64,000 nucleotides of DNA from the NCBI GenBank assembly GCA_024742605.1, contig JANSYC010000014.1, positions 1-64,000 on the forward strand. The letters are read 5' to 3'. Each line of letters opens with the position of its first letter. Within the stretch, counting starts at the first letter, position 1. The notes under the pieces were generated by a model that saw only the letters and a list, made by a program, of their open reading frames with translations, did no database searches and had not been told where the DNA came from. This DNA comes from Alphaproteobacteria bacterium. Lineage in GTDB: Bacteria > Pseudomonadota > Alphaproteobacteria > Thalassobaculales > Thalassobaculaceae. The position numbers and the translations under genes are program-made. Below are positions 24,691 through 28,727 of this stretch, one piece after another.

Positions 24691-25641
24691 ATGGCATTTC
24701 GGAATTCGCCCGCCAATACCGCATCCGCGTCGATCTCCGATGTCGTGGCCCTTATGGACGGGTTCTCGGTCGAGACCACACCCACCTCCGCGTCCAAGGT
24801 CGCGAGTTTCGCGGACCATCTGGCCCAGGGCACCACGGTCAACGTGACCTTTCTGCCGGGCAATGACCCGGCGGACACGATCGCGGTTGCAGCACGACTC
24901 CGCAACGAGGGATTCGAGCCGGTACCCCATGTCGCCGCTCGCTCCGTTACAGACCGGGCCATGCTGGACCGTTTTCTCGGTCGCCTTAAGGATGAGGCGG
25001 GCGTCACCCAGGCGCTTGTGATCGCCGGCGGTCTCGACCAGCCGACTGGCGCGTTCGCATCCTCGATGGAGTTGATGGAGACCGGTCTGTTCCAGCAGCA
25101 TGGCATCATGAAGCTGGGAGTCGCAGGTCATCCCGAGGGCACCCCGGACATCCCGGAGCAGGCGCTGAAGGAGGCGCTGCTCTGGAAGAACCGGTTCGCC
25201 CAGGAGACCGGGACCGAGGTCTATATCGAGACCCAGTTCTGCTTCGACGCGGATGCGATCATCGCATGGGACAGGAGGATCCGGGGCTGGGGCAACACCT
25301 TGCCGATCCACCTGGGGGTTCCGGGCTTGGCCAGTCTCAAAACCCTCCTGAAATTCGCGCAAATGTCCGGAATCGGGCCGTCCATCCGGGTGCTGACCCG
25401 CCAGGCGCGCAATATCGCAAAACTGATGCTGGTACAGGCCCCCGACCGGCTGATCCTTGAGCTGGCCGCCTATCAGGCCACGGATCCCGCTTGCGGGATC
25501 GAGAAACTGCACTTCTACCCATTCGGCGGTCTCGCCAAATCGGCGGAATGGGCCAACATGCTGGCCGCCGGTGCCTTCGAGATCGATGCGCCCCGGTTCG
25601 AGATCAAGCCGGCTGCCGCCCAGATCCGCGCTGTTTCCTGA
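24691..25641 (+). CDS. Methylenetetrahydrofolate reductase-like protein (MetF family)
   Basis: 316-residue protein with the MetF TIM-barrel pattern: SVETTPTSASK near the N-terminus, NVTFLPGNDPADT, PHVAARSV where MetF has the conserved HxxxR segment, QALVIAGG, and GVAGHPEGTPDIP (the family's HPE block). It would interconvert 5,10-methylene- and 5-methyl-THF using FAD. Because it opens an operon with a methyl-THF:corrinoid methyltransferase and a corrinoid activase, it probably runs in the oxidative direction, taking methyl groups from a demethylation pathway, rather than serving methionine synthesis. GGGAGG precedes the start. Confidence 0.85.
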   Translation: MAFRNSPANTASASISDVVALMDGFSVETTPTSASKVASFADHLAQGTTVNVTFLPGNDPADTIAVAARLRNEGFEPVPHVAARSVTDRAMLDRFLGRLKDEAGVTQALVIAGGLDQPTGAFASSMELMETGLFQQHGIMKLGVAGHPEGTPDIPEQALKEALLWKNRFAQETGTEVYIETQFCFDADAIIAWDRRIRGWGNTLPIHLGVPGLASLKTLLKFAQMSGIGPSIRVLTRQARNIAKLMLVQAPDRLILELAAYQATDPACGIEKLHFYPFGGLAKSAEWANMLAAGAFEIDAPRFEIKPAAAQIRAVS

Positions 25642-25677
25642 ACGCGCGTTCCTCATTTCACGTCCGGAGCCCAATTC

Positions 25678-26586
25678 ATGGTCGACACGATCCTCAGTTC
25701 CGCCACCCGGGAGGTCGTGATCGGCTTCGACCGTCCGTTCTGCGTGATCGGCGAGCGGATCAACCCGACCGGCCGCAAGCTTTTGGCGGCAGAGATGGCT
25801 CAGGGCGATTACAGCCGGGTCGAGAGCGATGCCCGCGCCCAGGTCGAAGCCGGGGCCAATATGCTGGATGTGAATGCCGGCATTCCGATGACCGACGAGC
25901 CCCGCATCCTGGCGGAATCCATCCAACTGGTTCAGTCCATCACCGACCTGCCCCTGTCGATCGACAGCTCGATCGTCGAGGCGCTGGAGGCAGGGCTATC
26001 GGTCTACAAAGGCAAGGCCCTGGTGAATTCGGTCACCGGCGAGGAGGAGCGTCTCGAGGTCGTCCTGCCACTGATCAAGAAATACGGGGCGGCCGTGGTC
26101 GCGATTTCAAACGACGAAACCGGGATTTCCGAAGATCCGGACGTCCGCTATGAGGTGGCCAAGAAGATCGTCGAGCGGGCGGCCGATTTCGGGATCGACC
26201 GGGCCGACGTGGTGGTCGACCCCCTGGTGATGCCGGTGGGCGCCCTGAATATGGCCGGCACGTCTGCGATGAAGCTGATTTCCCGGTTGCGGAACGAACT
26301 CGGTGTGAACACCACCTGCGGGGCGTCCAACATCTCCTTCGGTCTGCCGAACCGGCACGCGCTCAATGCCGCGTTCCTGACCATGGCGGTCGGCGCCGGC
26401 ATGACGTCCGCGATCATGAACCCGCTGCATTCCGAGGAGATGGCCGGCATCCTGGGCGCAAACGTGATGATGGGACACGATCCGGAATGTCGGCAATGGA
26501 TCAAGCGGTTCCGCGAACCGGCCGCCGAGGGTCAGGAGGCCGCCGGCGCGCGCGGCGGTCGCGAACGGCGACGCCGGCGCGCCTAG
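25678..26586 (+). CDS. Methyltetrahydrofolate:corrinoid methyltransferase
   Basis: 302-residue pterin-binding TIM barrel of the MtgA/AcsE/MetH-middle-domain type, which moves a methyl group between a corrinoid protein and THF. Visible blocks are GERINPTGRK near residue 25, the MLDVNAGIPMTDEP strand, SIDSSIVEALEAGL, NSVTGEEER and VVDPLVMPVGAL. There is no corrinoid-binding domain, so a separate corrinoid protein is needed and none is in this window. The last 15 residues are an arginine-rich tail (RGGRERRRRRA) beyond the barrel. It starts 36 nt after the MetF-like gene and ends 38 nt before the activase gene, so all three are probably one operon. Confidence 0.88.
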   Translation: MVDTILSSATREVVIGFDRPFCVIGERINPTGRKLLAAEMAQGDYSRVESDARAQVEAGANMLDVNAGIPMTDEPRILAESIQLVQSITDLPLSIDSSIVEALEAGLSVYKGKALVNSVTGEEERLEVVLPLIKKYGAAVVAISNDETGISEDPDVRYEVAKKIVERAADFGIDRADVVVDPLVMPVGALNMAGTSAMKLISRLRNELGVNTTCGASNISFGLPNRHALNAAFLTMAVGAGMTSAIMNPLHSEEMAGILGANVMMGHDPECRQWIKRFREPAAEGQEAAGARGGRERRRRRA

Positions 26587-26624
26587 GGCCCGGCCTCAAC
26601 CACAAGGGAGGCGTTCCGATCTCG

Positions 26625-28727
26625 ATGAACGAACAGCAGGTACCGGGTTTCCCCATGATCGGCCTGGACTCGACCGAAGGTGCCGGAGTTTCGTCGATCG
26701 GCGAAGCCTTTGTCGTGTTCACGCCGTCCGGCCGTCGAGGCCGCTTCCCGATCGGAACGCCGGTGCTCGAAGCCGCCCGCAAGTTGGGCGTCGATATCGA
26801 TTCGGTCTGTGGCGGTCGGGGCATCTGCGGACGCTGTCAGGTCGAGCCCAGCCTGGGAGAGTTCTCGAAATTTCAGGTCGACAGCCGGGGCGATCATCTG
26901 AGCGATCCTGGGCGGGCGGAACTGCGCTATGCCGAAAAGCGGGGATTGGCACAGGGTCGGCGGCTGAGTTGTTCCACCAAGCTTCTGGGCGACGCGGTCA
27001 TTGATGTCCCGGAGACCAGTCAGGTCCACCGCCAGATCGTCCGAAAACGGGCCGAGGCCCGGAACATCGAGATCAAGCCGATCGACAAATTGCATTATGT
27101 CGAGGTGACAGAGCCGGACATGCACGATCCGTCCGGCGATTTCCGTAGGCTGTGTGAGGCGCTGCGGGCGCAGTGGCCGGACTGGAACATCGCCGACGAT
27201 GTGGCCTGCGATCTGCCGGTGCTGCAGGTCCTGCAGAAGGCGCTCCGCACGGGCGATTGGAAGGTCACGGTCTGTGTCCGGGAAGGCAACCGGGTGATCG
27301 GCGTCTGGCCCGGATTCCGGGACACGATCTACGGGCTGGCGGTCGATGTCGGCTCGACCACCATGTCGGCCCATCTGTGCGAGCTGCATACCGGGGAGGT
27401 GGTGGCCTCCGCCGGGGTGATGAACCCGCAGATCCGCTTCGGCGAGGATCTGATGAGCCGGGTCTCCTACATCATGATGAACCCGGGCGGCGATGTTGAA
27501 CTGACCCGCGTGGTGCGGCAGGCGATCAATCATCTGGCGGCCCAGGTCGCCGAAGAAGCCGGCGTAGCGGTCGACGAGGTCATCGACTTGGTGTTCGTCG
27601 GCAACCCCATCATGCATCACCTTCTGCTGGGCATCGATCCGGTTGAGCTCGGGGGGGCCCCGTTCGCCCTGGCGGTCGACACAGCGGTTAACATCCACGC
27701 CATCGAGCTCGATCTGACCCTGAACCCGAACGCGCGGGTCTACGGCCTGCCCTGTATCGCCGGTCATGTCGGTGCCGACACCGCCGCCGTGATCCTGTCC
27801 GAGGCCCCGCACCTCCAGGACGAGCTCACCCTGATCGTCGACGTCGGCACGAATGCCGAGATCGTCCTGGGCAACAAGACCCGGCTGCTGGCGGCCAGTT
27901 CGCCCACTGGGCCCGCCTTCGAAGGCGCGCAGATTTCCAGCGGACAACGCGCGGCACCGGGTGCCATCGAGCGGGTCCGGATCGATCCCGATAGCCTCAC
28001 CCCATGCTTCAAAGTGATCGGCAGCGATCTCTGGTCGAATGAAGACGGCTTCGAGGCCGAGGTGGTCCGCACCGGCGTCACCGGCATTTGCGGCTCCGGC
28101 ATCATCGAGGTGCTGGGCGAAATGTATCTGGCGGGAATTCTGAAGGCGGACGGCACGATTGACGGGACTGCCGCCGCATCAGGCAAGGCAGAAGCCTGGC
28201 GCATCAAGCCCGACGGCCGTACCTTCGCCTTCGAGCTGACCCCGGACGTCTCCGTGATTCAAACCGATATTCGCGCGATCCAGCTCGCCAAAGCGGCTCT
28301 GTACGCCGGGTGCCGATTGCTGATGGACAAGTTCGGGGTCGACAGTGTCGACCGCATCCTGCTGGCGGGCGCGTTCGGCAGTCATATCGATGTGAAATAC
28401 GCCATGTTGCTGGGCATGATTCCGGATTGCCGTCTGGACAAGGTCTGGTCGGTCGGCAATGCCGCCGGCACCGGCGCGCGCATGGCGCTGTTGAACCGGG
28501 ACGACCGGTCCGAGATCGAGCGGGTCGTCCGTCGCGTGGAGAAGGTCGAGACGGCTGTGGAACCACGGTTCCAGGAGCATTTCGTCGAAGCTATGGCGAT
28601 CCCACATGCAACCGATCCGTATCCCAACCTTTCGGCCGCAGTCGACCTACCGGCGCGCCCAAGCCCTGAAGATCTGGCGGGTGGGGGATCCGGCGAGGGC
28701 CGTCGGCGCCGGCGTAGAGAGCGCTGA
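26625..28727 (+). CDS. Corrinoid-protein reductive activase (2Fe-2S ferredoxin plus ASKHA, RACo/RamA-like)
   Basis: 700-residue protein. An N-terminal plant-type ferredoxin domain carries the cysteines CGGRGICGRC (about 61-70) and LSC (about 115) for a 2Fe-2S cluster. A linker region precedes an actin-like ATPase (ASKHA, DUF4445) domain from about residue 235 (VDVGSTTMSAHL, FVGNPIMHH, IVDVGTNAEIVLGN, GICGSGIIEV). Such proteins use ATP to reduce inactive Co(II) corrinoid back to Co(I). This implies a working corrinoid methyltransferase system in the cell. The C-terminus ends in GEGRRRRRRER, echoing the tail of the preceding protein. The ATG at 26625 is chosen; GGGAGG is 14 nt upstream, a rather long spacing. 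Confidence 0.88.
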   Translation: MNEQQVPGFPMIGLDSTEGAGVSSIGEAFVVFTPSGRRGRFPIGTPVLEAARKLGVDIDSVCGGRGICGRCQVEPSLGEFSKFQVDSRGDHLSDPGRAELRYAEKRGLAQGRRLSCSTKLLGDAVIDVPETSQVHRQIVRKRAEARNIEIKPIDKLHYVEVTEPDMHDPSGDFRRLCEALRAQWPDWNIADDVACDLPVLQVLQKALRTGDWKVTVCVREGNRVIGVWPGFRDTIYGLAVDVGSTTMSAHLCELHTGEVVASAGVMNPQIRFGEDLMSRVSYIMMNPGGDVELTRVVRQAINHLAAQVAEEAGVAVDEVIDLVFVGNPIMHHLLLGIDPVELGGAPFALAVDTAVNIHAIELDLTLNPNARVYGLPCIAGHVGADTAAVILSEAPHLQDELTLIVDVGTNAEIVLGNKTRLLAASSPTGPAFEGAQISSGQRAAPGAIERVRIDPDSLTPCFKVIGSDLWSNEDGFEAEVVRTGVTGICGSGIIEVLGEMYLAGILKADGTIDGTAAASGKAEAWRIKPDGRTFAFELTPDVSVIQTDIRAIQLAKAALYAGCRLLMDKFGVDSVDRILLAGAFGSHIDVKYAMLLGMIPDCRLDKVWSVGNAAGTGARMALLNRDDRSEIERVVRRVEKVETAVEPRFQEHFVEAMAIPHATDPYPNLSAAVDLPARPSPEDLAGGGSGEGRRRRRRER

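Follow-up and report, generated by a model that had tools for sequence, protein, structure and literature searches.

Three co-directional open reading frames occupy positions 24691-28727 on the plus strand of the window (the whole 64,000-nucleotide stretch of DNA that was analysed), with intergenic gaps of 36 and 38 nt. The genes and the features of their products are given in Table 1. A first-pass annotation made from the sequence had described the locus as a corrinoid-dependent one-carbon operon, and this is borne out by matches of the products to profiles of methylenetetrahydrofolate reductase (MTHFR)-like, MtgD and RACo-like proteins.

Table 1. Coordinates of the genes and arginine-rich tails of the metF2-mtgD-ramA operon (positions in the window).
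Feature	Position	Strand	Description	Profile or domain
metF2	24691..25641	+	predicted divergent methylenetetrahydrofolate reductase, 316 aa, without Arg tail	PF02219, 34.6 bits
mtgD	25678..26586	+	methyl-THF:corrinoid methyltransferase, 302 aa	NF005719, PF00809
MtgD tail	26518..26583	+	disordered, Arg-rich C-terminus from about residue 281; last residues GGRERRRRRA	
ramA	26625..28727	+	RACo/RamA-like ATP-dependent corrinoid activase, 700 aa	PF14574, PF17651, PF17650, Fer2
RamA tail	28671..28724	+	Arg-rich C-terminal tail, PEDLAGGGSGEGRRRRRRER; RRRRRRER at 28701-28724	

In profile searches, the metF2 product scored 39.3 bits against TIGR00676, the model of canonical MetF, where the cut-off is 293.7, and passed the threshold of 24 bits for the Pfam MTHFR family. 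These scores indicate a divergent MTHFR paralogue and not the canonical MetF. MtgD reached 375 bits against its family model, well over the cut-off of 259, and is 71-86% identical to its counterparts across 80 homologous loci. RamA carries four RACo/Fer2 Pfam domains (Fer2, linker, middle and C-terminal) and its RACo C-terminal match is the only one in the genome. It falls short of the methylamine activase model TIGR04270 (111.9 bits, cut-off 500) and of the AcsV model NF040756 (384.3 bits, cut-off 800), and by domain content it is classed as a RACo-type relative. The longest open frame for RamA begins at 26487. As this frame overlaps mtgD, and the Shine-Dalgarno-like AAGGGAGG lies just upstream of the ATG at 26625, the latter is the likely start of ramA. 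The nearest relatives of the locus are found in alphaproteobacteria such as Nisaea, BAL199 and Dongia. In most other mtg operons, the MTHFR is a long form accompanied by an MTHFR C-terminal-domain protein instead of MetF2; two reductase types therefore serve one and the same Mtg system.

Both proteins downstream of MetF2 end in arginine runs. The run of RamA lies exactly where it had been annotated; that of MtgD had been placed one codon late, at 26569, and RRRRRA is encoded by 26566-26583. Both tails lie beyond the conserved domains, as had been proposed. Solved homologues align up to about residue 280 of 302 in MtgD and about residue 662 of 700 in RamA, and AlphaFold gives a confident barrel for MtgD followed by pLDDT values of 44-54 from residue 281 on.

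Dispersed Mtg genes in the source genome

The source genome (4.47 Mb, 187 contigs) contains the full Mtg set at dispersed sites. MtgC, which has a B12 cap (PF02607) and a B12 domain (PF02310), is encoded on contig 15 next to a DUF1638 protein, and no second stand-alone corrinoid protein for the partners turned up in the genome search. Three MttB proteins, all far over the cut-off, are encoded on contigs 57, 58 and 78, and the homocysteine methyltransferase MtgE on contig 12 (PF02574, 194.5 bits). With MtgD, MtgC, MttB, a RamA-like activase, DUF1638 and MtgE all present, the operon is the metF2-mtgD-ramA operon of the aerobic Mtg system. The first-pass annotation had noted that the substrate methyltransferase and the corrinoid protein were missing, which is true of the window; the genome search it proposed recovered three MttB proteins and one MtgC. 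An operon lacking its methyltransferase in the biological sense was therefore rejected, since MttB, MtgC and MtgE are found elsewhere in the genome and such dispersal of the parts is seen in roseobacters as well (PMC5764234, PMC12478193). Sets of this kind had been called best known in anaerobes; the Mtg system is an established one of aerobic bacteria.

A separate MetH with a B12 activation domain is encoded by two ORFs on contig 79. At this site (L018:4523-10197) one ORF encodes the homocysteine part and the other the folate, cobalamin and activation part, and the ORFs lie beside a canonical metF. The Mtg set as the sole methionine synthase was rejected because this MetH co-occurs with it. 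As the genome holds both the whole Mtg set and a separate MetH, the gene content makes it most likely that the window operon is catabolic, with methyl groups passing to MtgC, then to methyl-THF and on to methylene-THF. A link of the operon to methionine synthesis is possible.

Two further observations were made on the gene sets. A 2.8 Mb alphaproteobacterial genome (G034) has 15 MttB-family matches, some of them partial, and one MtgC, an extreme example of many putative demethylases served by a lone corrinoid protein. A small protein annotated as a virulence factor (VF, PF13769) sits in mtg operons and has a copy in the source genome (L012:7073-7417). In Terrarubrum it forms the N-terminal part of a fusion with RamA (L224:10755-13037), and a weak VF-like match of 22.9 bits, under the cut-off, is seen at the C-terminus of the corrinoid protein of Gemmatirosa (L227). 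These associations suggest that the VF family takes part in the transfer of methyl groups by corrinoids or in corrinoid reactivation, and not in virulence.

Conservation and specificity of the arginine-rich ends

Eighty homologous loci were fetched from Alpha-, Beta-, Gamma- and 'Delta'-proteobacteria, with GC contents of 38-71%. The tail is kept in all 79 intact MtgD proteins, with 5-9 Arg, almost no Lys and a median length of 23 residues, and in all 64 measurable RamA proteins, with 4-9 Arg in the last stretch. Thus, the tails are retained in every intact orthologue of MtgD and RamA examined, the check that the first-pass annotation had put forward. RamA also has its tail in each of the 11 other alphaproteobacterial families whose sampled genome has the protein.

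The occurrence of the tail in neighbouring genes of the homologous loci was scored in a mechanical gene call, where an Arg-rich C-terminus was defined as at least 5 Arg in the last 18 residues. RamA (62/66) and MtgD (57/61) pass this threshold. In the same loci it is reached by 1 of 51 DUF1638 proteins and by none of the MtgC (0/48), VF (0/42), long MTHFR (0/38; family identity taken from annotated equivalents) and MetF2 (0/28) proteins; for the MetF2, DUF1638, VF and MTHFR neighbours pooled, the count is 1/159. The background was estimated from 344 called genes in 450 kb of the source genome. Only RamA and MtgE have at least 6 Arg in the last 15 residues among these genes; MtgD, which the gene caller had dropped from the set owing to its overlap, comes third. 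The tails are thus more than a chance occurrence.

CGN-rich Arg runs are easily gained at 64% GC, and the tails could in principle be neutral products of GC-rich sequence or of read-through into low-complexity DNA. Against this, they are present in genomes of 38-49% GC, the Arg count shows no rise with GC (Spearman -0.26 for MtgD and -0.06 for RamA), unrelated neighbours are without tails, and retention extends across the four proteobacterial groups. As the tails hold from 38 to 71% GC, with an Arg count that does not follow GC, drift is excluded; GC drift or chance was rejected as their cause, being GC-independent, specific and rare among the 344 genes as they are, and a neutral origin has next to no probability.

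The matching tails that had been noticed on two consecutive partners are indeed present, but they are not confined to these two. MtgE of the source genome ends in GRAGRRRRRG. The class was sampled evenly, and 12 other genomes of the sample have an MtgE orthologue. With the source genome counted, the tail is kept in 11 of the 12 genomes with an intact end; the exceptions are G061, where it is lost, and G064, where the protein is truncated. Bmt of S. meliloti ends in ARERRRRA. In MttB, it is the N-terminus that is Arg-rich. All three MttB proteins of the source genome have an Arg/Gly-rich extension at their start (e.g. MTEGETRVGPEGRRGRRRAGG). The proteobacterial MttB proteins examined, those of S. 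meliloti, Paracoccus, Phaeobacter, Ruegeria and Cereibacter among them, share this feature. At least 4 Arg are present in 52 of 54 alignments, in which some proteins are counted twice; in the two exceptions an internal start was chosen by the script and the Arg-rich stretch is visible upstream. Structure 4yyc carries an Arg-rich N-terminus matching the S. meliloti MttB sequence. As 59 of the 344 background genes pass a loose test for Arg-rich N-termini, a noisy comparison with uncertain start codons, the claim for the MttB N-terminus is drawn from its conservation.

The distribution of the charged ends follows the need to contact MtgC: MttB, MtgD, MtgE and RamA have them, and MetF2, which need not contact it, does not. 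DUF1638 is likewise without a tail. Folate polyglutamates are anionic and MtgD handles folate, so that capture and channelling of folate polyglutamates by the tails was considered. Since RamA, MtgE and MttB are tailed and have no folate substrate, while the folate enzyme MetF2 is untailed, such a function is very unlikely.

The acidic arm of MtgC and its possible role in docking

MtgC has an acidic N-terminal arm, e.g. MAGDDGEDIVLSELEDDELVLQMHDD. In all 49 homologues with a clear start, the arm is 21-28 residues long and has a net charge of -7 to -13 (median -10), with 0.29 basic residues on average. Among the 344 genes, MtgC alone has an N-terminus in which a 24-residue stretch reaches a charge of -9 or below. 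Wherever MtgC, MtgD and RamA are all complete (39 loci), the arm and both tails occur together, and their charges are reciprocal. The core of MtgC is acidic too, with a median charge of -10. In a model of an MtgC homologue, only about the first eight residues are disordered, and they lead into the first cap helices.

The first-pass annotation had suggested docking of the tails on an acidic corrinoid protein. The arm of MtgC makes such a dock plausible, and docking itself is our reading of the pattern. We consider it probable, at somewhat under 0.6, that the tails tether the client enzymes to the acidic arm of MtgC and thereby replace the covalent linkers of MetH. The operon supplies three soluble components of the Mtg system. 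MttB-type enzymes would pass methyl groups from betaine-like substrates to the common MtgC, and MtgD would catalyse methyl exchange between MtgC and tetrahydrofolate. Oxidation of methyl-THF to methylene-THF by MetF2 would follow, and MtgE could draw the methyl group from MtgC to form methionine. MtgC with oxidised cobalt would be re-reduced by RamA, using ATP and its Fe-S domain. MtgC, one small protein, has to meet every partner in turn. The flexible Arg-rich ends, C-terminal in MtgD, RamA and MtgE and N-terminal in MttB, may loosely hold the MtgC arm, and such docking would raise the local concentration of clients while allowing the corrinoid domain to swap partners. Docking on the arm is the simplest reading, because the tails track the partners that contact MtgC and the corresponding modules of MetH are tied by linkers. 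The loss of the MtgE tail in G061 counts against docking, and the arm need not be the dock, as MtgC is acidic as a whole.

Covariation of charge between the genomes gave no consistent signal. The correlation of the arm with the MtgD tail was -0.29 (Spearman, p 0.08), and that with the RamA tail +0.35 (p 0.03), although an inverse relation was expected. A true relation could be masked by saturation or by common descent.

The tails could instead bind another polyanion, such as RNA, polyphosphate, the nucleoid or acidic membrane lipid, and so gather the enzymes of the pathway in one place without any binding of tail to MtgC. Arg/Gly-rich disordered ends are typical of nucleic-acid and membrane binders, and the ends of MttB resemble RG-rich motifs. 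A localisation signal of this kind would, however, be expected on MtgC or MetF2 too; the tails are limited to the enzymes that contact MtgC, with MetF2 of the same pathway lacking one, and MtgC has the sole strongly acidic N-terminus among the 344 genes. Polyanion binding is thus judged unlikely. The low-complexity ends of several partners are oppositely charged, which would also fit a multivalent assembly, a condensate or large metabolon, in place of one-to-one docking, and corrinoid and MttB proteins are often oligomeric. With an arm of 21-28 residues, of which about the first eight are predicted to be disordered, MtgC offers little for such an assembly, which appears more doubtful still.

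Returning to docking on the MtgC arm, an extension of it is that the Arg-rich terminus acts as a client tag, so that any enzyme gaining one would be recruited to the arm. This is proposed tentatively, at somewhat less than even odds. If true, one corrinoid protein could serve many demethylases, methionine synthesis and reactivation, through a non-covalent equivalent of the linkers in MetH, one that would have evolved within the proteobacterial Mtg lineage. Reciprocal charge on exactly those partners would be a sequence mark for further MtgC clients, and the pattern gives a direct and cheap test of the way in which several demethylases, a folate enzyme, a methionine-forming enzyme and an activase share one small corrinoid protein.

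Relation to known corrinoid systems

The operon belongs to a system that is already in the literature, and its tail and arm feature is apparently undescribed and very widely conserved. No report of Arg-rich ends in the Mtg system was found in the open-licence literature, though one may exist elsewhere. Phaeobacter inhibens has its methionine synthase divided among separate homocysteine, pterin and B12 proteins, and a RamA-like protein and DUF1638 are required as well (Price et al. 2018, PMC5764234). The source genome likewise has separate pterin, B12 and homocysteine proteins with a RamA-like protein and DUF1638. P. inhibens depends on the split enzyme for methionine, whereas the source genome adds a MetH with an activation domain. 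The same MtgC and MtgD have a further task in Ruegeria pomeroyi, the demethylation of glycine betaine (Mausz et al. 2025, PMC12478193). When this species grows on that substrate, the abundance of MttB-type proteins, MetF2 (its gene adjoining mtgD), RamA and DUF1638 is raised; Mtg is reported to be a major ocean route of glycine betaine demethylation (PMC12478193). The present genome shares with R. pomeroyi the same proteins, metF2 beside mtgD, several MttB proteins with one MtgC, and dispersed genes. It differs in having metF2-mtgD-ramA in one operon and in the presence of MetH. The main text of PMC12478193 makes no mention of Arg tails or an acidic arm.

The anaerobic systems, D. hafniense MtgABC, AcsE/RACo of acetogens and RamA of methanogens, have homologous domains. 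Unlike the Mtg proteins, the solved structures of the anaerobic homologues stop or start near the domain boundary and are without Arg-rich ends: AcsE has 262 aa with the match reaching 260, RACo (3zyy) 631 aa with the match reaching 622, and glycine betaine methyltransferase 9yce matches from residue 6, though crystallised constructs may be trimmed. The controls outside Proteobacteria are few and consist of plasmid records and PDB sequences. The anaerobe Acetoanaerobium and Gemmatirosa (Gemmatimonadota) have neither the RamA tail nor the MtgC arm. Thiodictyon, which has a different corrinoid set, is without tail and arm. The haloarchaeon Halomicrococcus has no tails but does have an acidic corrinoid protein; a plasmid of it (L220:11155-15861) has a comparable set in a row, made up of genes for this corrinoid protein, an ASKHA activase, DUF1638 and an MtrH-like methyltransferase.

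Like MetH, the set described here comprises homocysteine, folate, cobalamin and activation modules. Unlike MetH, in which the modules are covalently linked, these are separate proteins with charged ends. If docking on the arm is correct, the modules of a fused enzyme would here be held by disordered charged ends rather than by linkers.
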